Part shown: piece after piece, positions 2,458 to 16,518 of the stretch
Layout: each line of letters begins with the position of its first letter
Position numbering within the stretch: the stretch's first letter is position 1
Assembly: GCA_022226955.1 (NCBI GenBank)
Contig: CP092079.1
Span: forward strand, 1,395,053 to 1,459,052
DNA: 64,000 nucleotides
Source of the DNA: Nitrospira sp.
Lineage (GTDB): Bacteria > Nitrospirota > Nitrospiria > Nitrospirales > Nitrospiraceae
Reading direction: 5' to 3'
Translations under genes and position numbers: made by a program
Notes under the pieces: generated by a model
Database searches by the model: none
The model's input: only the letters and a program-made list of their open reading frames with translations
Told to the model about the DNA's origin: nothing

Positions 2458-2502
2458 ACCAGGCCTCCTTTTGTATGTGATCAACTTTCAATAGCCAGCC
2501 GC

Positions 2503-3417
2503 TTACGGAGTTTGCGTAAGCTGATAATTGCTCGCGGCCGGCTGATTGCCCGCACCGGATTTCGCACAGCGAAATCCGGTGAGATAACTCTTTCTTGTCG
2601 GCTCTCCGCCGTTGCGTCCGGCAGACCGCGCGACTTCCGGGTCTTCGTTCCAGGACCCGCCGCGAAACACTTTCAGTTCACCGTCATCGGGGCCTTGAGG
2701 ATTCTCAGTAATGCCCTTGCGGTAATAATCCGGGTCGAACCAATCCGACACCCACTCGCTGACGTTGCCGGCCAGCTGGTAGACCCCGTAGGGACTCACC
2801 CCTTTGTCGTAGCGGTTGATATTGGCCAGCGGCGGGTACTTGGCGCCCCGCTTCGACCCGGGGTGCGCGATGTTGCTCTTGATCCAGCCGGCCGGCTCAT
2901 CGCCCCAGGGGAACATGCGGCCGTCCGAACCCCGCGCCGCCTTCTCCCACTCCGCTTCGGTCGGCAAACGCTTGCCGGTCCAGCGGCAATAGGCATCGGC
3001 CTCCTGCCAACTGACGTTGATCACCGGATGGGTGGCCATTTTGTCGGGGAACGGCTTGGCCCGCCAGAACTGCGGCCAACTCGCGCCAGTGGAGAGCACG
3101 AATCTGAGATATTCCACGTTCGAGACTTCGTAGCGATCGATCTCGAACGCATCGAGAGTCACCCGGTGCAGCGGCTGTTCTTGCGGACCTGCCGCGGGAT
3201 CTTTTCGGGGATCGCTCCCCATCAAAAACTCACCGGCCGGCACCATGACCATGCCGCCCGGCACATCCGTCATGGCCATCTGCTCGACTTCGTCCAGCGG
3301 CGTCCAGAGCGGGGGCTGCGCCGACGATTCATGATCGGCCAGCGAAACGCCCACGGGTTGAAGCATCATCCACAGTGCCACCGCCACGGCTATGCTGAAC
3401 GTCACCCTTCTGGCCAT
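2503..3417 (-). CDS. Secreted SUMF1-fold protein (formylglycine-generating-enzyme-like), copy 2
   Basis: The start chosen (MARRVTFSIAV) gives a 304-residue protein with a signal peptide to about residue 27. The longer reading would run back through an intergenic hairpin. SUMF1 motifs are present in order: VPAGEFLMGSDP, RYEVSNVEYLRFV, HPVINVSWQEADAYC, GKRLPTEAEWEKAARG, GNVSEWVSDWF, FRGGSWNEDPE and GFRCAKSG. As in copy 1, the two catalytic cysteines of true formylglycine-generating enzymes are absent. Copies 1 and 2 are clear paralogues. The C-terminal tail (NQPAASNYQLTQTP) after GFRCAKSG resembles translated AGCTGA-type repeat DNA and may be a late extension. Confidence 0.85.
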   Translation of the reverse strand: MARRVTFSIAVAVALWMMLQPVGVSLADHESSAQPPLWTPLDEVEQMAMTDVPGGMVMVPAGEFLMGSDPRKDPAAGPQEQPLHRVTLDAFEIDRYEVSNVEYLRFVLSTGASWPQFWRAKPFPDKMATHPVINVSWQEADAYCRWTGKRLPTEAEWEKAARGSDGRMFPWGDEPAGWIKSNIAHPGSKRGAKYPPLANINRYDKGVSPYGVYQLAGNVSEWVSDWFDPDYYRKGITENPQGPDDGELKVFRGGSWNEDPEVARSAGRNGGEPTRKSYLTGFRCAKSGAGNQPAASNYQLTQTP

Positions 3418-3434
3418 ACCTACCTGGCTGTCAG

Positions 3435-3480
3435 GCTGGCAGCCGTCAGCTTCGGGAACAAGAAGCTGAGAGCTGCCAGC
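3435..3480 (-). repeat. Long intergenic hairpin of AGCTGA-type repeat
   Basis: A 9-bp stem (GCTGGCAGC at 3435-3443 with GCTGCCAGC at 3472-3480), a 2x2 internal bulge and a further 8-bp stem (TCAGCTTC at 3446-3453 with GAAGCTGA at 3462-3469) enclose an 8-base loop. It fills most of the gap between the cupredoxin-like gene and SUMF1 copy 2. It could cause partial termination or protect mRNA between cluster genes. The sequence resembles AGCTGA/CAGCT intergenic repeats. Confidence 0.6.
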
Positions 3481-3508
3481 CAATCGCAAACTCTGTCAAT
3501 TCGCCGCG

Positions 3509-4441
3509 TCAGTGCTCCTGCTTTTCAAGCAGCGGATCGATTTCTTTCTTCGCTTCCTCGGTCACGTTGTAGCGAGTATACGCATGATCCAACACTTCGT
3601 TGGCGTAGAGCCGTCCCGTTGGAGCCGGTACGCTGATCGCCGTTTCGACGGTGGCCTTGGGACCAATCGTAACGGTCTGCTCCGTTGTGGTCCTGACATA
3701 GGGATGCCACACGACCAGCTTGTAGGTGCCCGGCGGCACATCGGTGATGGTAAACTGGCCCTGTTCGTCCGTTTTGGCAAAATAGGGGTTATTGATAGCC
3801 ATTCCCCAGCTCTCCATATAGGCATGGAAGCCGCACTGCATGACGAAAATGCGGCGGTTCTTGCTGAGATTGACCAATTGCTTCATCGGCGGCCCCGCCA
3901 TATGTTTGTGATACATCCCGGCTTCGGTGCGATCTTTAAAGTTGCGCGGATGCTGCGGATTCATCGGCAGGGGCACGTTGAAAAGAACACGCGCGCCTAA
4001 ATTCGACGTTTCATAGGCTTGAATATCGTGCATGACCGGATCCATGTTGACCACGGTCACCGATTGATCGTCACGCACCACCGTCGTGAATGGTAAAAAC
4101 AAGCAATCTTTCGCCTCGATCTGCGGCACCATCTTTTCCTCGAACGGTTTGCCCTTCTCCACTCCTTCTAAATAGACCACGACGTCGCGAAACTCTCCGG
4201 CAGCCCCAACCTGAAACGGCTGAAGAATCCGCCAGCCTTGCCCGTCGGAAATACGCCCGCAATAGAACGGGTCTGGCAACGTGGTCAGGTTATACCCTTT
4301 CGGCTTGGGGACCGCGCCATCAAGCTTCACGGTCCCTGTGATAGTCCCGCCTTCTGTCACGATGGCTTCTTCATAGGCCAAAGCAGGGCTCCCCAGAGCC
4401 AGCGCCAGTATTCCGGTCATCAGTTGTGTCTTGATTTTCAT
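3509..4441 (-). CDS. Secreted cupredoxin-like protein with C-terminal beta-sandwich domain
   Basis: The ATG used gives 310 residues with a classical signal peptide cut after about ALA-22; AGGAGG lies 14 bases upstream. Residues 25-215 form a cupredoxin-like unit. His138 in a MHDIQAYE context, then Cys203-x2-His206 followed by Met209 or Met214, matches the order of type 1 copper ligands in plastocyanin-like proteins. Residues 222-275 (FTITDVPPGTYKLVVWHPYV) look like a carboxypeptidase regulatory-like (CarboxypepD_reg) fold. Its place directly after the giant multicopper oxidase suggests a periplasmic electron carrier or copper-binding partner. That pairing is inference; a methylamine-utilisation-type cupredoxin of other function is possible. 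Confidence 0.75.
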   Translation of the reverse strand: MKIKTQLMTGILALALGSPALAYEEAIVTEGGTITGTVKLDGAVPKPKGYNLTTLPDPFYCGRISDGQGWRILQPFQVGAAGEFRDVVVYLEGVEKGKPFEEKMVPQIEAKDCLFLPFTTVVRDDQSVTVVNMDPVMHDIQAYETSNLGARVLFNVPLPMNPQHPRNFKDRTEAGMYHKHMAGPPMKQLVNLSKNRRIFVMQCGFHAYMESWGMAINNPYFAKTDEQGQFTITDVPPGTYKLVVWHPYVRTTTEQTVTIGPKATVETAISVPAPTGRLYANEVLDHAYTRYNVTEEAKKEIDPLLEKQEH

Positions 4442-4561
4442 AGTTCGTTCTCCGGCCTCCTTCAGCAGATTGAGGTTAAGGTGAAGACTGCGGTTGAGTG
4501 CTCCCCAGTATACAGGGATTTCGCCCGCGATCTCAGCCTCAACCTTCCTCTTCAAAACACA

Positions 4562-4623: not shown

Positions 4624-7600
4624 TTATTTCATGGCGGTCGGAATGGCTTTCACTGCGGGCTCCACTTCCGCCTGCTTGGCGCCCATACCGGCTGCACCAA
4701 GCGGCTGGATCCGTGAATCGCCTGCCGGCAACACACGGAGGTAGCCCCACTGTCCTGACTGCGTGTAGGGCAGCCGGGCGTTGGACCAGACGAAATCTCC
4801 CACCTGACGATACGGGCCGCCCGCACCGCCACGAATGAAGACATCGAGGACTTCCGATCCGGCATACTCCACAACGCTGATCATGTCGGCACCCGGCATG
4901 TACGGCTCGATCGGCCACTCATGGCCTTCGACGCCGAACATTCCGTTCTGCTCGCTATTCGCACCGATGACATGGATGCGAAGCGCGTCACCCGCATGCG
5001 CCTCGATGAGAGGCGTGACGGGATCCTCGGGCTTATCCACCGCACAGGGCTGGAAAATCTTCCCGAGCGAGCAGCCTTGCTCTTCACGGAACTTGTACGG
5101 TTCGGCGCGGTAGTTCACCGACGTCAAACCGGCGACGTTCTGCACATAGGGCATGAACGCGGTTCCGATGATGTTGTCTTCATCCTGGAAGAACAGGGCG
5201 ACATCGCGATAGTTCCGCTTGCCGGCATTTTCGGTCAAGCTCGTATCGACAATGACGTCCGCGCGCCAGGCATTCTTCTGCGAGATATCCGCACCGGTCA
5301 CCGGATCGCGGTACTGCGACCCACGCGGACCGACGACGATGGCACCGTACAATCCGTTGCGCGGATTCAGCACGATGTTGCCGCCGTCCCACACCAGCGA
5401 CGTCGTTTCCTTATTGGAAGGATGCGCGTAATAGGTGTAGACGCGGCCCTCGCCCGGAGCCACAGTCTGCTCGCCGGCGTTGTTGCCGACATTCAGGCCC
5501 TGGCTGTCCTTCGGATCGAAAGCCAATCCCGGCGCAAAGAACGACGCCCGGCTCGCCTTCATCTTGTTCTTCAGATTCACCTTGATACAATCGCCCAGGT
5601 TGACACGCAGCGTCAGCGGATTCGGAGTCAATCCACTGGCCACGGTCGTGGCTTCCTCTTCCAGCGCGAAGATCTTGCCTTCCGGCATGGTCATTTCGAT
5701 CTTCCGCTCGAAGTCCACCTCGATTGCGTCCGGCGCCTTCGGATGGAGCTTCATCGGGCGATCCAACGCCACGACGTTGAAGCTCTTCACCGGAGCATTG
5801 GCCGGGCACACCGAGCTGGGAGTGGCGGGAATCCCGAGGGGATTGGTCCCCTTGGGCAACGGCTTCAGGTCCGCCGTTTCCTTATCGAGCACGCGCACGA
5901 TACCCCATCCACCTTCGGCGAAGTGTGACGTTCTGCCGTTGAAGTGAATGTAGTCGCCCGGCATGCCCTGGAATCCGCCCGCCTTGGTCACGAGGTCATA
6001 CCGCTCGGCGATCCCGACGTGAATCGAGTTCTTCCGGTTGGCATCCGCCGCATACCGTTCCGTGAGGAAGGTGTGGCCGGCGATCGTCCAGACGTGGGAT
6101 TCGTTCATCAGCTGGTGCAACAGGCGGAACACCATGGTGTCGCCCGTGTACGCCCGCAGGAGCGGGGTGCCCGGATCCCCATGGATCGCGCTGCTGAACA
6201 GCTTCGACGTATCAGGGTTGTTCGAGAGGCGCTGCGCAAACGGAGCCGCGCGGAAGTTGAACCCGCTGCCGGTCGTATGCGTCCCGCCGTTGATGTACTT
6301 GTTCGGCGCGTTCAAGATCTTATCGGGCATCTGGAACGACACCGTCTTGCCTGCTTCCAACGCCACTTCGATCGGCTGTCCCGGAGGATTGCCGGCTTCG
6401 ATGACGTTCACCGTGTGCGGCACCGTGTCGTGGATGGAAACCATCAACTCACGGAAGCTGCCGCTGACACCGGCACCGATCGGCTCGTTGCTATGGATGT
6501 CCGCGATCGGACCGCTCCACACCAGCTTGCCGTTCTTCGGATCGTGATAGGTGGACCCGAACGGCTCCACGATCGTCACGCCGAACCCGCCATGCGGCCA
6601 GGTCGTCGCGCCGAACGCGTGGTCATGCCAGAACACGGTCCCCATATCCACGTCTACCCACCACCGATACCGCACAAACTCCGGCGACACGAGGTCGTTG
6701 GCCGGATGGTTGTTCTTCAACGGCTTGAAGAAGGTCACCTGATCGCCCTTGATCTCCTTGATCCGGGCGACTTCGGAGCAGCTCTTATCCCGCGGCAGTG
6801 ACGCCGTGGCATCGTTGCCCTTCTCCAAACAATCCATGCCCACCATCAATTCGGTGTTCACATGGAACTTCGAGGCACCCGGCGCCATCTCGATCTTGAT
6901 GGAAGAGGCTCCGGCCTTGGCTCCGCCGACGATCTTGGCGACCATCGGAGCGGGCAAGCCGTGCTTGGTCTTCTTCCCCCACATTGTGAAGGGGCGCACG
7001 GACATTTCGTACTCCATCCCGGAAATGACTCCGTCCGAGTTCCCTGTATCGAACTGGAAGAAGTGAGGATGGATGTTGATCTTGGACGACTGGAAATTCG
7101 TGTAGTCGTCGTCGTCCCACTCGCTGGTGAGCACCAAGTCCACACAGTCATACACGTTGGCGCGAATGACCGCCGGGAGCTTGAGATCGTCGTTCGCTCT
7201 GGTCAACCGCTCTTCTTCATGGAGCAAGTAGATCAGACCGTCTTTATCCACCATGGCCGGCTCTTTCCCCTGCTTTTTGGCAAGAGTGATCGGCATGCGG
7301 ACAAAGTGAATGTTGTAGAACTTCCGGTTCGCATTCACCGGGCAGAGACTCCAACGTCCCTGTTCGCCAGGAATGGCTGGCTCGGAGGTCCGCTCGCCAT
7401 TGGCATCCTGGTGGATCGGCTCCAGCCAGGGGGCGCCACTATGGTTCGCGGAGAACGGCACACGCTTGCCGAAGTGCGGCTTGAACAACGGCCAGGCCAT
7501 CTTGCCCGTGGTCGGGTCGAAGAGAATAGCCGGTCTGGTGCTGTCATCCCACTTGGCTGCCCATGGATACTTCGGATTTGCGGCGGTGCTTTCCCGCTCG

Positions 7601-9564
7601 CCGCGGGCGATGTTGCCGTCCCACTTCCAGTCCCACACCGTCGAATCGTAGGCCATGATCTGGCCCTTCTCGTCGTTGGTGTGGCCCGGTTGACCCTGGG
7701 CTGGCACGAACATCTCGACCCAATCCTTGATATTCACCACCACCGGATCGGATTTCCAGTTCGTCTTCTGGCTCTTGTCGACGATCTGGAAGGTCTTGCC
7801 GAACCAATCGACAGTGGTGCCGATCAGCTTGTCCGACGAGACGCCCTGCTTCATGCGGCCCACACGCTCCGGCAACTCACGCATATCCGGCATCGTGTCG
7901 GTATGCGCCGCGCCAACTTGCAGCGTGTTGTAGAACCGGCCGTACCCCCACATGCCCGCGACGTAGTGATGCGCCACATGACAGTGATAGAGGAACTCGC
8001 CGGCCAGATGCTGACAGCCACCGCCGCCGCACTCAGGCTCCAGGTCGAGCGCTTCTGACGGCCCGATGACTTCCACGTCCACCCGATCGGACTTGGTCCG
8101 AATGACCGGATATTTCACCGGACCATCCTGACCCATCGCCCACAGGGTGTTGGGTTCGGTGCCAGGGCTGCGCTGCCAGCGGATGGTTCCGCTATGAGGA
8201 TGATGGGAGTGAAACACTTCCGATCCACCATGCACCACCCGCCACTTGACCGGGTCACCCATGTAACCGCGCGCCACCGTGGTGGGAGGATCGCCGAAGG
8301 TGTACGCACTGTACGCCATCGACTCATCCTCGAATCCAAAATATTCATGCTGCAAATGCATCTGATCGATGCCGAACGGCTCGCTGCGATAGTTGATCGC
8401 GCGACCGCCTGGGCGGTACGCATCCGTCAGCGGATCGCGCTGCGGCAAGAAGTCGCCCTTCTTGTTCAGCGGACGGAACGCTTCATCGCCGATTTCGTGA
8501 TAGAACAGCACGAATTCGCGGAAGTCCGGTCCAGACCCGTTGTCGATCATGACCTGCCATCCGCTGTCGGTCTCGGGCGCGGCGCCCGTGCCGAGCGGAT
8601 CGAGGTATTTGGAGCCCTTCGGCTCAACGATGAAGGCACCGAAAAGACCCAACACCGTCAATTCGCGGTCATGGCTCCAGGAGTGGAACTGCCGCACACC
8701 TTCCTGCATGCTTGGATAGATGTACCATTCGAATTCCTGCGTCTTGCCCGGCGACACCACCGTATCGGGGTTTGTCGTCGTGGCGGGCTTTCCGGTCGCG
8801 CTCACGATCATGCTGGAGGCCTGGATGACCAAGCTGCCATCCTCACCTTCCATCTGATTGCGCAACGTCATCTTGACGCAGTCGCCCTGATTGGCGCGGA
8901 GCACCAACGGCTGAATCGCATCGCCCTGGTTTCCAGTCGTAACCGCGCCCGGATCGAACCCATCCTTCTCGCGGGCCTCCTTATTCTTGGCCTCTTCCGC
9001 GCGAACCTTATCCAGGTCGTGGGTATGGGCATACATATACCCAGGATAGAAGTCGAGCCAGCGATTCAACGAGACTTCCACGTTGATCATCGAGACATCA
9101 AACTTCTTGACCGGGGCATTGGCCGGGCACTTGCCGCCGGACGACAAGACCGGCTCGCCCTTGCCGGGATCCGACATGAGCAGGAAGCTGCTGCCGTCCT
9201 GCCCCATGTACTGGTGCATCATCGACATGTCGTTGAACGCACCGGAAGTCGGGGTCGCCTGCGCGTCTTTCTTCGCCTGGTTCCCCAGCTTCTCCATCAA
9301 CCGATGATGCTGCATCTCCATCTTCTCGGCATTACCGGCACGACCTTCCATGGCGTTTTCCACCACGGTCTGGCCCTTGAGCTGCTGCGTCCAGCCTGGC
9401 ATCGCGACCGGAGTCGCGTGGCCGTCGTGCAACGGCTCAGCGGGTCCTGCCGCAAACAGCCATGGTGTCGCCACCAGGCTGCCCGTCAGCAACACGCTGT
9501 GCAGCATCAACGACAGGCGGCTACGCCTCCGCTGACGCTGAGATTGAAGTTGAAAAACCCTCAT
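4624..9564 (-). CDS. Giant periplasmic multicopper oxidase, MofA/MnxG-like (putative Mn(II) oxidase)
   Basis: At 1646 residues this is close in size to MofA of Leptothrix and larger than MnxG. GGGAGG precedes the ATG. A basic N-terminus (RRRSRLSL) and hydrophobic stretch to about residue 40 form a signal, perhaps Tat-like but not canonical. Three internal repeats start with a C-PxNA motif (about residues 146, 741 and 1253), so six cupredoxin domains are likely. Copper ligands visible: His294/His298, the His452-457 cluster, a type 1 site His527-Cys528-His529 with His533 and Met538, the His832-Pro-His834 pair, and His980-Asp-His982 with His991. Unit 3 (after residue 1250) has lost nearly all ligands. 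Family members oxidise Mn(II) or other metals; the substrate here is inferred, not shown. Confidence 0.85.
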   Translation of the reverse strand: MRVFQLQSQRQRRRSRLSLMLHSVLLTGSLVATPWLFAAGPAEPLHDGHATPVAMPGWTQQLKGQTVVENAMEGRAGNAEKMEMQHHRLMEKLGNQAKKDAQATPTSGAFNDMSMMHQYMGQDGSSFLLMSDPGKGEPVLSSGGKCPANAPVKKFDVSMINVEVSLNRWLDFYPGYMYAHTHDLDKVRAEEAKNKEAREKDGFDPGAVTTGNQGDAIQPLVLRANQGDCVKMTLRNQMEGEDGSLVIQASSMIVSATGKPATTTNPDTVVSPGKTQEFEWYIYPSMQEGVRQFHSWSHDRELTVLGLFGAFIVEPKGSKYLDPLGTGAAPETDSGWQVMIDNGSGPDFREFVLFYHEIGDEAFRPLNKKGDFLPQRDPLTDAYRPGGRAINYRSEPFGIDQMHLQHEYFGFEDESMAYSAYTFGDPPTTVARGYMGDPVKWRVVHGGSEVFHSHHPHSGTIRWQRSPGTEPNTLWAMGQDGPVKYPVIRTKSDRVDVEVIGPSEALDLEPECGGGGCQHLAGEFLYHCHVAHHYVAGMWGYGRFYNTLQVGAAHTDTMPDMRELPERVGRMKQGVSSDKLIGTTVDWFGKTFQIVDKSQKTNWKSDPVVVNIKDWVEMFVPAQGQPGHTNDEKGQIMAYDSTVWDWKWDGNIARGERESTAANPKYPWAAKWDDSTRPAILFDPTTGKMAWPLFKPHFGKRVPFSANHSGAPWLEPIHQDANGERTSEPAIPGEQGRWSLCPVNANRKFYNIHFVRMPITLAKKQGKEPAMVDKDGLIYLLHEEERLTRANDDLKLPAVIRANVYDCVDLVLTSEWDDDDYTNFQSSKINIHPHFFQFDTGNSDGVISGMEYEMSVRPFTMWGKKTKHGLPAPMVAKIVGGAKAGASSIKIEMAPGASKFHVNTELMVGMDCLEKGNDATASLPRDKSCSEVARIKEIKGDQVTFFKPLKNNHPANDLVSPEFVRYRWWVDVDMGTVFWHDHAFGATTWPHGGFGVTIVEPFGSTYHDPKNGKLVWSGPIADIHSNEPIGAGVSGSFRELMVSIHDTVPHTVNVIEAGNPPGQPIEVALEAGKTVSFQMPDKILNAPNKYINGGTHTTGSGFNFRAAPFAQRLSNNPDTSKLFSSAIHGDPGTPLLRAYTGDTMVFRLLHQLMNESHVWTIAGHTFLTERYAADANRKNSIHVGIAERYDLVTKAGGFQGMPGDYIHFNGRTSHFAEGGWGIVRVLDKETADLKPLPKGTNPLGIPATPSSVCPANAPVKSFNVVALDRPMKLHPKAPDAIEVDFERKIEMTMPEGKIFALEEEATTVASGLTPNPLTLRVNLGDCIKVNLKNKMKASRASFFAPGLAFDPKDSQGLNVGNNAGEQTVAPGEGRVYTYYAHPSNKETTSLVWDGGNIVLNPRNGLYGAIVVGPRGSQYRDPVTGADISQKNAWRADVIVDTSLTENAGKRNYRDVALFFQDEDNIIGTAFMPYVQNVAGLTSVNYRAEPYKFREEQGCSLGKIFQPCAVDKPEDPVTPLIEAHAGDALRIHVIGANSEQNGMFGVEGHEWPIEPYMPGADMISVVEYAGSEVLDVFIRGGAGGPYRQVGDFVWSNARLPYTQSGQWGYLRVLPAGDSRIQPLGAAGMGAKQAEVEPAVKAIPTAMK

Positions 9565-9648
9565 ATCGCGGCCTCCCCCCTGTTATGACCGCCCCCTGGG
9601 CGGACTGTTGAAACACACCGACAATGGATACTCGCCAGATACCTTCCA

Positions 9649-9793
9649 GGTACTTTATCTGCGCGATAAAAGTACCGGCCTCCGACTCTCTCCGGCCTTT
9701 CCTCTGGAGGAATTTAGAGCTGGTGAAGGATCCTTCTCACGAAGGAGTGGGTCATTCGGAGGCCGGTCCAAAATTACCCAGACCTTCACCAGC
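9649..9793 (-). ncRNA. Structured 5' leader with interleaved helices upstream of the oxidase
   Basis: Three long helices can form in the minus-strand leader. P1 pairs 9783-9793 with 9719-9729 (11 bp, perfect). P2 pairs 9756-9767 with 9674-9685 (12 bp, perfect). P3 pairs 9665-9676 with 9649-9659 (11 bp with one bulged base, 5-base loop). P1 and P2 are interleaved, as in a pseudoknot. P2 and P3 share bases 9674-9676, so they compete at their edge. The element starts just downstream of the sigma-54 type promoter and ends 85 bases before the oxidase ATG. It matches no riboswitch class that I recognise; regulation of oxidase expression is inferred. Confidence 0.5.
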
Positions 9794-9806
9794 GGAGCTT
9801 TCTATC

Positions 9807-9822
9807 CGCAAGCGTTATGCCT
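9807..9822 (-). promoter_or_regulatory. Sigma-54 (-24/-12) promoter candidate for the multicopper oxidase
   Basis: On the minus strand the sequence reads AGGCAT, five bases, TTGC, with GG and GC at the exact -24/-12 spacing; the consensus is TGGCAC-N5-TTGC. The predicted start near 9796 would place the structured leader at the very 5' end of the oxidase mRNA. The neighbouring activator gene supports the call. Confidence 0.55.
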
Positions 9823-9931
9823 AACTCACCGTTCCTCCAGCATATTTTCGATTTCTCAGTCCTGGAGCGGCTTCGATAACACTCACTGTTCCATCAGGAC
9901 ATTGCACCCGAATGGCATGATTCCACAGGCC

Positions 9932-10008: not shown

Positions 10009-10046
10009 GGAAAGATGAGTTGGGGCAAATGAGGGCACTGAAAGAC

Positions 10047-10070
10047 GGACTAGAGGGACTAGAGGGACTA
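10047..10070. repeat. Short tandem repeat GGACTAGAG
   Basis: Two perfect 9-base units (10047-10055 and 10056-10064) and a partial third overlap the stop codon of the minus-strand activator gene. The array is probably slippage-derived; no function is evident. Confidence 0.6.
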
Positions 10071-11462
10071 TTGGAGGCCGTAATCTCGCAGCTTATTGTA
10101 GAGACCAGCCCGACTGATCTTCAGTAACTTGGCGGCTCGAAGCCGATTCCCGCCAGTCTTCCGCAAGGCTTCGACGATGCGTGTCCGCTCCGTGAGACTG
10201 ACTGCGTCCCGAACCACCGTGCGCAGCCCTTCCTCCGGCGCCTTTGCTCTCAAAGCCACCATATCGCTGCACATCAGATCTGGACCCGTCGTTGTCACAA
10301 CCGCCCGCTCGATGTAATGCTGCAACTCGCGAACATTCCCCGGCCACACCGCCTCGCTGAGCGCTTGCACCACATCGGACGAGACCGTTCTCAGCGACTG
10401 CCGATGGCGCTTGCACGATGCGGCGAGGAACTGGTCGACCAACAATGGAATATCCTCTCGCCGCTCTCGAAGCGGAGGCAACGACAACGGCAAGACCGCC
10501 AAGCGATAATACAGATCCTGCCGGAACGCCTTCATCTTCACCAACTCACCCAGATCTTTATTCGTGGCCGACACGACTCGTACATCGACCTTGACCGGCT
10601 GATTGCCTCCGACTCGTTTGACTTCCCCTTCTTGCAGCACACGCAACAGCTTGGCTTGAAACGTCGGCGTCGTATCGGCAATCTCGTCGAGGAAAATGGT
10701 GCCGCCGTCCGCTTCTTCGAACAGACCCCGCTTATTCGCCGTCGCACCGGTAAACGATCCCTTCATATGGCCGAATAACTCGCTCTCCAGCAAGGTCTCC
10801 GGCAGCGATCCGCAATCGACCACCACAAACGGCTTGTCCCGGCGATCACTGAGGCGATGAATGGTCTTCGCGACTAACTCTTTACCCGTGCCGCTTTCAC
10901 CCTGAATCAACACGGTCGCCTGGCTCTCCGCGACCAATGCAATCATGTCGAACAACTGCTGCATCGCCGCGCTGCGGCCGATGAGATCGCCCAAATGCTC
11001 TCGCACCATCGGAACCGGACGGTCGTCCGGCTCCTGAAACACCGGTCGAAGAGCTGGCTTAGGAGAGGACGTAAATAACACCAGCATGGAGGCGACCTGC
11101 CCGTCGCTGGCGACCAGTGGAAACGCCTGATGCATCCCGCAAGCAGTCCCATCGCCCTCTACGCCGCACGACACGGACTGGACATCCGGCGATTGAAACA
11201 CTTTCGTCGCCGGGCAGGCGCCGCAGGGATCGGGGCGACGCGCAAACGCCTGATAGCACTTTGCAGGATGCGAGCGGGATTCACCGGACACAGGCTCGGC
11301 CCATGCCGCCGAGTTGGCGTACACGACGTTGAACTCGCGATCCATCACCGCGACACGATCGGATATTCCACCCGCAAGCTGCCGAATCGCTTCGACCCGC
11401 GCGGCGAGAATGGGATCGTTGAAAGGGGAAACGACACACACCTCTGGCTGAGATCCGGCCAT
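10068..11462 (-). CDS. Sigma-54-dependent activator with Cys-rich PAS domain
   Basis: The 464-residue protein has an N-terminal PAS-like sensor (about 25-130), an AAA+ ATPase domain (about 155-385) and a C-terminal Fis-type helix-turn-helix ([20 protein letters not shown]). The AAA+ part shows Walker A GESGTGKE, the sigma-54 contact loop as GSFTGA, and Walker [12 protein letters not shown]. The PAS region carries Cys69, Cys80, Cys83, Cys99, Cys108 and His111. The CYQ..C-x2-CP pattern is common in PAS proteins of related bacteria but could also bind metal or sense redox. There is no receiver domain. An AGGGAG ribosome site precedes the ATG. The gene directly precedes the oxidase control region and is the likely regulator of the oxidase. 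Confidence 0.9.
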
Positions 11463-12138: not shown

Positions 12139-14424
12139 CTATCCACCCTTCGGGAGCAGAATCGTAAACGTCGTCCCCTGTCCCTCCAGACTTTCCGCTG
12201 AGATCGAACCCTGATGCTCTTCGATAATGCCTTTCACCACCGTAAGGCCAAGCCCCGTTCCCTTGCCAAACTCTTTGGTCGTAAAGAACGGGTCGAAGAC
12301 TCTGGCGATCACCTCCGGAGGAATCCCACTGCCCGTATCCGCCACCGTGAGCTTCACCATGCTGTCCGCCTGCGCCATTCCGATACGCAATTGCCCACCG
12401 TCCGGCATCGCGTGAACGGCATTCATGATGAGATTGATGAGCACCTGATTCATCTGGTCGGCATCGGCCTGCACCTTGGGACAGGCATCATCCAGCTGCA
12501 TCTCAACCTGCACGCGGTTTTTCGCCAGCCGTTCCTGAAACATCTCGACGCTGCTTTCAATGACGTCCCGCAAGACCAGCGAGCCTCGCTCAGGCGGCTT
12601 GCGCCGGGCAACCGCCAGGAGCTGATTCATGACACGCGTAATGCGTTCCACCTGCGCCACAATCGTGTGCAGGCCCCGCTTCACCGTCTCATCCGTCACG
12701 CGATCCATCAGATATTCCGCGCGGCCTAGAATGACGTTCATCGGCGTTCCGATTTCATGCGCCATTCCGGAGGCGACCGTCCCGAGCTCCGCAATGCGTT
12801 CCGTCTTGCGCAACCGGTCCTGCAACCGCTTCCGCTCACTGATGTCGCGCAACATCACCAACATCGCCGGACCTTCTTCGTCGAAAAACCCCGCCGCACT
12901 AACCTCGACATCGATCGGCACGCCATCCAGCCTGAGAATCCGCTCCTCAACCATTGGAATCACCTGGCTCCCGCCGAGCAATTCATCCGCCCGCTCGCGC
13001 ATGGCCGCGTGAGAGTCCTGGTGAAAGAGATCGACAGAAGACCGCCCGACAATCTCCTCGGCCTTCACCGCGCCGAATAGTTTCAGCGCCTGATCGTTCG
13101 CAAAAATAACCCGCTCGGCCCGGATCACCAGGATGCCGTAGGGCGACACCGCAATCAGGCGCCGATACCGCTCTTCGCTTTGCCGGATCAGCTGCTCCAC
13201 ACGCTTGCGCGCGGTCACGTCCTGCGTGGTCCCTACGATACGCGTCACCCGAAGGCCTGTGCCCGTCCCTTCAAAAAACACCTGTGCCCGCACCACCATC
13301 CATCGCACTTCCCCGCCGAGATATCGCATCCGGCACTCCGACGTAAACCGTGCGTCAGGCGAGTCAGGCCGATGCGTCGGCGCCATCAGTTCCTGCAAGG
13401 CGCGCAGATCGTCGGGATGCATAGAGGCCATCATCGCTCCGAGCGAAACACCGGTCCCGCAATGATGCAGCGCCTGAGCGCGGACATCCAGCTGCACCAG
13501 ATCCGCCGCCACATCGTATTCCCAGGCCCCAAGCTGGCCGGCCTCAAGAGCCAGCCGAGACCGTTCTTCGATTCCACGCAGATGCGCTTCCGCGCGCAGC
13601 CGCTCCGTAATGTCCCGAAGGATGACGGTATAAAACGTGGCGCCATCGACCACGATATGGGAAATCGCCGCTTCGACCGGAAACTCTTCGCCGTTCCCGC
13701 GCAGCCCCATGACCGTCCCGAGCTGCCCCATCTTCCGGCTGGTCACGTGGGATCGCCCGAACTTCTCCACATGATGCCGATGGGCCTCCCTGAATCGAGC
13801 CGGTAAGAACCGGTCCAGCGAGTGGCCGATCGCGTCGCGAGCAGAACATTGAAACATCCGCTCGGCCGCCTCGTTGAAGAGGAGAACCTGCATCCGATCA
13901 TCGCTAGTAATGATGGCGTCCATGGCGGACTGGACGATCCCGTCCAGCCGAAGACTGCTCAGCAACAAGTCCCGCGCGACTTGCGACTCGCGGTGCATGG
14001 CGCCCGTTGCGCTGGCTTCCGCCAGCTCGCGCGCCGCCACGGCCGCTTCCCGCCCGGCCTCCGCCTGCGCTTGCGCCGCCCGGGCCCCGGCAAGCTGACT
14101 GCGCACCTGCCGCTGCCGGACGATCATCCACGTCATTCCCCACATCACCGTCAAGCCGAGCGCACGGTTCATCACCGCCATGACCGGATCAATGCCGCGC
14201 GGAGAAAAGTACCCGCCCAAGGCCATCAACAGAGTCACCACCGCGGCAAAGCGGTAGGAATCACGGTCGCGCGGGGATTGCAGGACAAGCACGAGCGGGA
14301 TGAAATACAAGAGCCAGTCGGCCCATCCGAGCGGCGTCAGGAGATCGAGGACAAAAATAGAGGCAGTGAGCAGGGCAACCAGCCCAGCCCCTAGGCGGGA
14401 GAAGGCTTCAGATGGTGGACTCAC
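12139..14424 (-). CDS. Membrane sensor histidine kinase with multiple PAS domains
   Basis: The 761-residue protein starts with about four membrane helices (residues 10-105). A coiled, Ala-rich linker (about 108-150) follows, then three PAS/PAC units (about 160-280, 285-410 and 415-535). The HisKA domain has His556 in GMAHEIGTP. The ATPase domain has N-box [11 protein letters not shown]1 DTGSGIPPE and G2 GKGTGLGL. It is downstream of the NtrC-type regulator by 36 bases and most likely phosphorylates it. The signal is unknown; the short loops of the membrane part suggest sensing within the membrane. Confidence 0.9.
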
Positions 14425-14460
14425 GAGGGTCTCGGACCGGCGTGCATGGTGAACGATAGT

Positions 14461-15837
14461 CTACTCGTGCGTCTTCGCTTCTTCAATCTCGCTAAGCTTG
14501 CGATAGAGGGTTTTCCGGTCGATGCCCAAGGCCTGCGCGGCCTGATATTTATTCCCGCCGGTCTTGTCGAGGATCTTCTTGATGTACTCTCGTTCGATCT
14601 CCTGCAGCGGCAGCATCTTTTCCGCCGCTTCGTCGAGCACCCGCCGGTCTCCGCGGGCGCCCTGCACCGCCTGGGGCAGATCGTCCGGCGAGATTTTTTC
14701 GCCGCGATTGAGCGTCACCGCCCGCTCCACCACATTTTCCAACTCGCGGACATTGCCTGGCCAGTTGTAGTCCATCAACATCGCCAGCGCCGATTCACCG
14801 ACTCCTTTGACTTCCTTGTTCCGGGCCTCGGCGCATTTCTTCAAGAACTCTTCCACCAGAATGGGAATATCTTCCCGGCGATCCCGCAACGGCGGCAGCA
14901 TCACTTCAATGACATTGAGCCGGTAGAACAAATCGTCGCGAAACCGCTTCGCCTTCACCTCTTCCGCAAGATGCAAATTGGTCGCGGCAATAATCCGCAC
15001 ATCGACGGCGATCGGCTTTGTGGCGCCGACCCGGCGGATGTCCTTTTCTTGAATGGCCCGCAAGAGTTTGGCTTGCAGCATAATCGGCAGCTCGCTGATT
15101 TCATCGAGAAACAACGTGCCCTTTTGCGCCTCTTCAAACAGGCCGCGCTTATCCGTCTTGGCATCCGTGAAGGCCCCGCGCATATGGCCGAACAACTCGC
15201 TTTCCAGCAGCTGCTCGGGAATCGCAGCGCAATTGACCGGCACGAACGGCGCATCCTTGCGATCGCTATTATAGTGAATAGCTTTCGCCACCAGCTCTTT
15301 TCCCGTTCCGCTTTCGCCGGTGATCAGCACATTGGTGGGGCTATCCGCGACGCGGCGGATCAGGTCGAAGACCGCCTGGATCGCTTTGCTCTTCCCGAGG
15401 ATGTGATGAAAACTGTACTCCTTATGCACTTCCTTCCGGAGCCGGCCGACTTCCCGCCGCAACGCGGATTCGCGCACCGCGCGCTCGACCACTCGAATAA
15501 TCTCCTCGGTCTTCACCGGCTTCGTCAGATAGTCGCTCGCGCCTCGCTTCATCGCTTCGACCGCCGTTTCGACGGACCCGAAGGCAGTCATGAGAATGAC
15601 GCCAATATCGGGATACAGCCGCTTGATCTCAAGCAGCAATTCCGTGCCGAGCATCCCCTTCATGCGCAAGTCGGTCAGCACCACGGCGAAATCTTCCTCG
15701 GCCAGGAGTTTCAGCGCCTCCTGCCCGCTTCCCGCCGTCGAAATCTGATGTCCGCGATCCTTGAGCACGTCGAACACCAGTTCGCGCATCTCGGCATCGT
15801 CGTCAACGACCAGTACCGCGCCCCATTCTTCCGTCAT
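14461..15837 (-). CDS. NtrC-family response regulator
   Basis: At 458 residues it has a receiver domain with Asp56, an AAA+ domain with Walker A GESGTGKE and Walker B GTLFLDEISE, and a Fis-type DNA-binding helix at the end (TGGNKYQAAQALGIDRKTLY). The sigma-54 contact loop reads GAFTDA instead of GAFTGA, a variant seen in other working activators. It is the first gene of an operon with the kinase that follows, so the pair forms a complete two-component system. A possible target is the consensus sigma-54 promoter at 11965. Confidence 0.92.
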   Translation of the reverse strand: MTEEWGAVLVVDDDAEMRELVFDVLKDRGHQISTAGSGQEALKLLAEEDFAVVLTDLRMKGMLGTELLLEIKRLYPDIGVILMTAFGSVETAVEAMKRGASDYLTKPVKTEEIIRVVERAVRESALRREVGRLRKEVHKEYSFHHILGKSKAIQAVFDLIRRVADSPTNVLITGESGTGKELVAKAIHYNSDRKDAPFVPVNCAAIPEQLLESELFGHMRGAFTDAKTDKRGLFEEAQKGTLFLDEISELPIMLQAKLLRAIQEKDIRRVGATKPIAVDVRIIAATNLHLAEEVKAKRFRDDLFYRLNVIEVMLPPLRDRREDIPILVEEFLKKCAEARNKEVKGVGESALAMLMDYNWPGNVRELENVVERAVTLNRGEKISPDDLPQAVQGARGDRRVLDEAAEKMLPLQEIEREYIKKILDKTGGNKYQAAQALGIDRKTLYRKLSEIEEAKTHE

Positions 15838-15906
15838 GCGTCACTCCTTCTCGACAGTTATCAGAGTGCAGCCTCATCCATCCGACGACACGCCGACGAC
15901 ACGGAA

Positions 15907-16518
15907 TTACGGAACGCGCGGCTCCATTGAACGGATCGCCGCGGCGATCTCTTCGCTCACGACGGCGAGCGCGCGGCTGTAGGCCGACGCAATCGCCCCG
16001 TACCCTTCGCCTTCTACGGGAAGACGGACGTTCGAACGCCCCTGCTTCTTCTGCTCTCCCCCATCCGGCAAAGCACGCTTGATCGCCCAGAACGCTTCCA
16101 GCCAGACATCTTTTCCATTGTTCGTTTCAAACCGGGGCAGATCCACCGCCAGGCGATACCCGGCCGGTCCGCTTCTGTGCTGGGGATAGACCCAGACCTC
16201 TTCGGTTCCCAGAATCCGCCCCAGGTTCTCCGCAAGGACGCGAGGGATGTCTCGCTTCAGAGCCTCCGCCCATCGATGCTCCTCGATAAACGACACGGCA
16301 TTCGGCCCGGATCGCACGACGAATTGCGGCCGATCGACAACCTCCGAGAGCGTCGTCGGCTCAATCGCGATCCGGACACCAGTCTTTCCTGCGGCCTCGC
16401 GCCCTGCCGGCGCTTCCGCGCTCAAGGTATAAAAATAGGTCGGTGGCGAAGACAGGCATCCGCCCGTCGCCCCAACGACCGCCACTACCACGACCGCGCG
16501 CACGATCCGCCGCATCAT
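15907..16518 (-). CDS. pqiC: PqiC-like auxiliary lipoprotein
   Basis: The 203-residue protein has a lipoprotein signal with Cys21 (GATGGC), followed by the YFYTL motif of the ABC-transport auxiliary family (PqiC/YmbA). In Escherichia coli PqiC sits in the outer membrane and binds the end of the PqiB needle that carries lipids across the periplasm. It overlaps pqiB by 4 bases (ATGA), so the two are translationally coupled at the end of the pqiA-pqiA-pqiB-pqiC operon. Confidence 0.85.
   Translation of the reverse strand: MMRRIVRAVVVVAVVGATGGCLSSPPTYFYTLSAEAPAGREAAGKTGVRIAIEPTTLSEVVDRPQFVVRSGPNAVSFIEEHRWAEALKRDIPRVLAENLGRILGTEEVWVYPQHRSGPAGYRLAVDLPRFETNNGKDVWLEAFWAIKRALPDGGEQKKQGRSNVRLPVEGEGYGAIASAYSRALAVVSEEIAAAIRSMEPRVP

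Follow-up and report, generated by a model that had tools for sequence, protein, structure and literature searches.

Several described systems place an anti-Shine-Dalgarno sequence in the loop of a folded RNA. In Alphaproteobacteria, rhizobial small RNAs (RFM SmelA075/SmelA099) are built of three or four hairpins on which conserved CCUCCUCCC loops are carried by variable stems, and they were proposed to block ribosome-binding sites (RBS) in trans (PMC3927594). In the SD-sequestering pseudoknot riboswitches (SAM-II, preQ1-II/III), the loop of a leader structure can pair with the SD of its own gene. Trans-acting sRNAs derived from 5' UTRs are a further point of comparison. We analyzed a 64,000-nucleotide stretch (hereafter the window) of a Nitrospira sp. 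genome, in which the leader of a giant multicopper oxidase gene forms a structured RNA with a comparable loop. Compared with the rhizobial sRNAs, which have a small-RNA gene of their own and a general CCUCCUCCC loop, it is a single three-way junction in an mRNA leader, with one 12-nt loop, GGACCGGCCUCC, specific to the RBSs of one gene family. Compared with the pseudoknot riboswitches, no conserved ligand pocket was found, the loop also matches the RBSs of other genes, and there is no sequence relation, as judged by the absence of an Rfam match. By these criteria it belongs to neither family. With the 5'-UTR-derived sRNAs it shares a predicted position at the very 5' end of an mRNA, an AU-rich stretch downstream and a match to the RBS of another mRNA, release as an sRNA and action in trans being predictions only.

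The locus had been singled out in a preliminary description as a pseudoknot-like leader with two interleaved perfect helices of 11 and 12 bp and a third, competing 11-bp hairpin. This observation is confirmed: both perfect helices are present and interleave as an H-type pseudoknot. The third hairpin is present in the sequence with one bulged base (9649-9659 with 9665-9676); it was not listed by a repeat search, and is shared only with the closest relative (leader copies L006/L036; L numbers designate copies of the leader and G numbers genomes, G000 being the genome studied here). The relevant strand is the minus strand, on which the oxidase is encoded; it folds 4.2 s.d. better than dinucleotide shuffles, none of 200 being as good. 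The features of the locus are collected in the following table.

Features of the oxidase leader and its surroundings (window coordinates)
Position	Strand	Feature	Basis
9808..9821	-	predicted sigma-54 promoter, GG-N10-GC (GGCATAACGCTTGC), 14 nt before P1	signature and spacing in related leaders (see text)
9719..9793	-	conserved 75-nt three-way-junction RNA (P1, P2, P3)	covariance model R2, 85 bits, E 4.6e-15 (the window's copy was in the training set); covariation; conserved in genus and family
9783..9793	-	P1 5' strand, pairs with 9729-9719	perfect 11-bp helix; all 11 pairs covary over 92 sequences, 99.4% of cells paired
9719..9729	-	P1 3' strand	as above
9749..9779	-	P2 hairpin carrying the recognition loop	consensus fold; covariation of the lower P2 pairs
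9758..9769	-	apical recognition loop GGACCGGCCUCC (anti-Shine-Dalgarno)	weighted conservation (see text)
9731..9746	-	P3 hairpin, GNRA-type tetraloop in this genome	U-A/C-G covariation
9692..9698	-	site A, AGGCCGG, 7-nt complement of the loop	complementarity and duplex energy analysis
9674..9685	-	site B, UCGGAGGCCGGU, RBS mimic; pairs with 9767-9756 as the 12-bp pseudoknot helix	perfect 12-bp helix; duplex energy (see text)
9649..9676	-	lineage-specific hairpin overlapping the 3' end of site B	seen only in the window and its closest relative
9569..9576	-	RBS of the oxidase, GGAGGCCG, 8-nt perfect complement of the loop	complementarity; GGAGGCC in related leaders
4624..9564	-	giant multicopper oxidase, 1646 aa, MnxG-related	Cu-oxidase_3 (Pfam); PDB 9bxa MnxG, E 1e-85
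4452..4460	-	RBS of the next operon gene (3509-4441), GGAGGCCGG, 9-nt complement of the loop	complementarity; conserved at the equivalent gene start in g14 genomes
2462..2468	-	RBS of the gene at 1495-2457 (EgtB/SUMF1-like), GGAGGCC	complementarity; NCBIfam
10068..11462	-	sigma-54-dependent activator (AAA+ and Fis-type HTH), directly upstream	Pfam, NCBIfam
12139..14424	-	PAS-containing histidine kinase, likely partner of the activator	Pfam

The window lies in a 3.6-Mb single-contig genome, whose genus and family include Nitrospira moscoviensis and N. defluvii. The oxidase is far below the NCBIfam MnxG cut-off and is thus a relative of MnxG and not an MnxG. Two formylglycine-generating-enzyme-like proteins follow it in the apparent operon, at 1495-2457 (EgtB/SUMF1-type models) and at 2503-3489 (judged by eye), both on the minus strand.

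To determine whether the helices could be due to chance, we examined their conservation. The leader matches 76 of 79 genus genomes, most strongly over 9793-9716, and is also found upstream of the oxidases of other genera. A first alignment of 35 distinct sequences gave a three-way junction with compensatory changes. A covariance model found the RNA in 150 of 172 family genomes and, in the phylum sample, in 115 of 396 genomes, all of them in the order Nitrospirales apart from one weak hit without the loop (G175); the RNA occurs in two families of this order. The weak hits in G175, G093, G231 and G311 (E 0.015-0.9) were treated as chance. Hits on the opposite strand are shadows of the self-complementary helices (22-25 bits against 85-104 bits for the true strand). 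Every hairpin read, except the chance hit in G175, lies upstream of a giant oxidase gene. In an alignment of 92 copies, 95.1% of cells are paired and 22 of 27 pairs carry changes on both sides, with 222 double-change cells against 50.6 +/- 5.8 in shuffles (0 of 500 as good) and 21-45 in slid controls, in which 34-56% of cells are paired. This alignment is fitted to the model, which leans towards the structure, but the P1 replacements (for example GCCGACGCUGG with a matching 3' strand ending GGCGUCGGC) are plain in the sequences. Chance is excluded by these changes and by the matches in 76 of 79 genus genomes. The covariation that the preliminary description had set as a test is found. No Rfam 15 family matches: at the gathering threshold only a tRNA was found in the window, and no match up to E 10 was obtained over 9540-9850. 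A blastn search of a plasmid collection returned nothing.

The distribution of conservation within the RNA was then considered. With similar sequences down-weighted (effective number 27), the 12-nt apical loop of P2 is 99% conserved, compared to 69% for paired columns and 44% for other unpaired columns, those of the junction included. We infer that this is what an antisense-type recognition loop on a scaffold looks like, and not what a ligand pocket usually looks like. The interleaved 12-bp helix is a lineage-limited alternative pairing of this loop, present in many but not all leaders, and not the universal core.

The GG-N10-GC signature of sigma-54 lies upstream of P1 in 67 of 73 non-redundant leaders, and in 62 of these 67 the distance between GC and P1 is 13-14 nt. 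RpoN is encoded in the genome, and no sigma-70-type promoter was found upstream. Transcription is thus predicted to begin within a few bases of P1, near 9796, so that a start downstream of 9674, which the preliminary description had named as refuting its reading, is not indicated; this is a prediction and not a measurement. The T fraction is 0.38 in the 12 nt after P1, compared to 0.18-0.26 beyond. An intrinsic terminator directly after P1 was considered, as 28 of 76 leaders have 5 or more T in 8 nt against a background of 8%, but the window itself has no clear one there and none is claimed.

One exception concerns a divergent second type of the RNA (L102, at G000:C1:3035362-3035433, and the similar copies L104, L106, L140 and L141), which precedes another giant oxidase. 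These copies lack the sigma-54 signature (by eye for L140/L141), as does L111, have a UCUGGUGA...UCACCAGA P1, and are followed by the RBS GGAGGCTGG or GGAGGCCG. In L108 and L111, also of the second type, the loop is changed to GGACTGGCCTCC and the oxidase RBSs that follow (GGAGGGGAAA, GGAGGAGAAG) no longer match beyond GGAGG; the RBS of L118 likewise has reduced complementarity.

The loop contains CCUCC and is complementary to the RBS of the oxidase itself, which reads GGAGGCC in 65 of 73 leaders (the start finder required GGAGG followed by A, C or T, so that the figure concerns what follows GGAGG). By comparison, about 7.7% of the GGAGG sites before an ATG continue with CC in this genome, (76-19)/(1108-368), where 19 and 368 are control counts; whole-genome pattern counts were preferred here, since a baseline taken from retrieved loci was biased by loci retrieved with the pattern itself. 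Two other genes of the operon have complementary RBSs, and the equivalent second gene in the g14 genomes has GGAGGCC, mostly GGAGGCCGG.

The genome carries a second giant oxidase (RBS at G000:C1:2633518) and a third, whose leader is the second-type hairpin at G000:C1:3035362. The second has no hairpin and, by eye, a TTGACA-type promoter; its RBS and start read AAGGAGGCCGGTCCATG, the exact complement of all 12 loop bases. The 16-mer AGGAGGCCGGTCCATG occurs once per genome (twice in G331) in 65 of 396 phylum genomes, all of this order, against one hit of the reversed control. Wherever read, it is the start of a hairpin-less giant oxidase, in otherwise unconserved sequence. A 17-mer scan of 84,980 species also returned hits in unrelated genera, in numbers near what chance gives for such a short pattern (about 30 expected). 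Within the genus the commonest variants, GGAGGUCGG and GGAGGCUGG, keep the pairing by G-U. A few do not: AGCAGG, AAGAGG, and GGAGGCCAGTCC, an uncompensated mismatch in three g15 genomes with a canonical loop. Three genomes without a detected hairpin (G274, G280, G311) keep the perfect paralog RBS, whereas three other hairpin-less genomes (G080, G231, G245) have changed ones. In the sister families the exact RBS is found in 10 of 12 hairpin-bearing but in 3 of 22 hairpin-less genomes. This co-loss is suggestive of action in trans, but it is confounded by shared descent and by G274, G280 and G311, and was not used as proof.

Between P1 and the RBS, stretches of 8 nt or more complementary to the loop are present in 28 of 73 leaders against 1.1% of shuffles, and stretches of 7 nt or more in 37 of 73 against 4.6%; related leaders are not independent, so these figures are descriptive. 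Duplex energies with the loop are -31.1 kcal/mol for the paralog RBS, -27.4 for site B, -22.4 and -19.8 for the operon genes and -18.4 for the own RBS, with a median of -12.9 for 114 ORF starts of the window (isolated stretches, without the cost of opening P2). We infer that site B, which looks like a copy of the RBS, should out-compete the own RBS and leave it free.

Taken together, the explanation we favor, with moderate confidence, is a leader RNA that controls translation by loop-RBS pairing, in cis and probably in trans. The analysis itself establishes the RNA structure, its place after a sigma-54-type promoter sequence and before giant oxidase genes, the invariance of the loop, and its complementarity to the RBSs of the oxidase, of operon partners and of the hairpin-less paralog. 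The remainder is inference, in the absence of expression data: that transcription starts at the predicted promoter, that pairing blocks 30S binding and that translation of the targets depends on it, that sites A and B relieve repression in cis, and that the leader, or a small RNA released from it, acts in trans. In this view the loop can sequester the oxidase's own RBS; in many genomes an upstream RBS mimic (site B or A) competes for the loop and so frees the real RBS; and the leader, or a fragment cut at the AU-rich stretch after P1, can repress the paralogous oxidase. As the loop is invariant, loop-RBS pairing cannot be tested by covariation, and the RBSs of paralogous genes could share ancestry; the conserved paralog RBS in G274, G280 and G311, the mismatch in the g15 genomes and the reduced complementarity in L108, L111 and L118 also count against the model. 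The net effect would be that switching on the first oxidase by its two-component/sigma-54 system turns down the paralog. A more far-reaching form of this model, which remains tentative, is an RNA-mediated isoform switch conserved through much of the order Nitrospirales, in which the leader of one oxidase mRNA is an antisense regulator of its paralog and of its own operon's RBSs, and shields its own gene by the in-leader RBS mimic.

Among the alternatives, control in cis only, in which the loop sequesters the RBS of its own mRNA, site A or B releases it, and the matching RBS of the paralog is merely inherited from the common ancestor, survives best although we regard it as unlikely. It agrees with the position of the copies read, with the complementarity of the own RBS in almost all of them and with the paralog RBS of G274, G280 and G311. 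However, the paralog matches over 12 nt, better than the own RBS (8 nt), and the extra GGUCC is kept across the order although the rest of the UTR is not; operon partners share the motif, which one cis hairpin cannot cover at once; and the 5' part of the loop (GGAC) has no partner in the own RBS.

The interpretation given in the preliminary description, a ligand- or metal-sensing switch without known riboswitch consensus, is supported only in part: the leader is real, structured, conserved and matches no known riboswitch, but the evidence does not support the switch itself. A compact three-way junction with an SD-complementary loop and an alternative partner is a common riboswitch arrangement, and metal regulation would make sense for MnxG-like oxidases. 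On the other hand, no conserved ligand-binding core was found, the junction being poorly conserved, there is no Rfam match, and all copies read precede one gene family only. A metal riboswitch, with the loop pairing as expression platform, is thus not excluded but is improbable. We consider it very unlikely that the loop is a protein-binding or kissing-dimer site with secondary RBS complementarity; its invariance and partly palindromic sequence (CCGG and GGCC are self-complementary) would agree with this, but it would explain neither the exact 12-nt complement at the paralog RBS nor GGAGGCC at the own and operon RBSs. Finally, DNA-level repeats (operator, REP or mobile element) without an RNA role, suggested by inverted repeats close to a promoter, can be all but dismissed given the single close copy in this genome, the one orientation relative to the gene, the covariation including G-U changes and the position just after the promoter.

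Nitrospira oxidize nitrite, and in part ammonia, worldwide, but we found no description of this leader, nor of any small RNA or regulatory leader of Nitrospira, in the open-access literature searched. Anti-SD loops on variable stems and SD-sequestering leaders are already described; what is new is an RNA family with covariation support, absent from Rfam, which leads to the prediction that one 12-nt loop coordinates several copper oxidases through their RBSs. If this is right, it would be an unusual mRNA leader that links paralogs, with a built-in RBS mimic, and would give a handle on when these MnxG-like oxidases, whose function is unknown, are used.

Other features were observed around the leader and in related genomes. 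Three head-to-tail copies of a 9-nt unit (AGACGGACT, and AGAGGGACT twice) lie at 10043-10069, just beyond the stop of the sigma-54 activator gene. A 494-aa ORF next to the histidine kinase (14446-15930, plus strand) has no Pfam or NCBIfam match. In genome G117 the oxidase match (G117:C12:138416-143317) is reported with six in-frame TGA codons, which may correspond to decay, assembly error or recoding.
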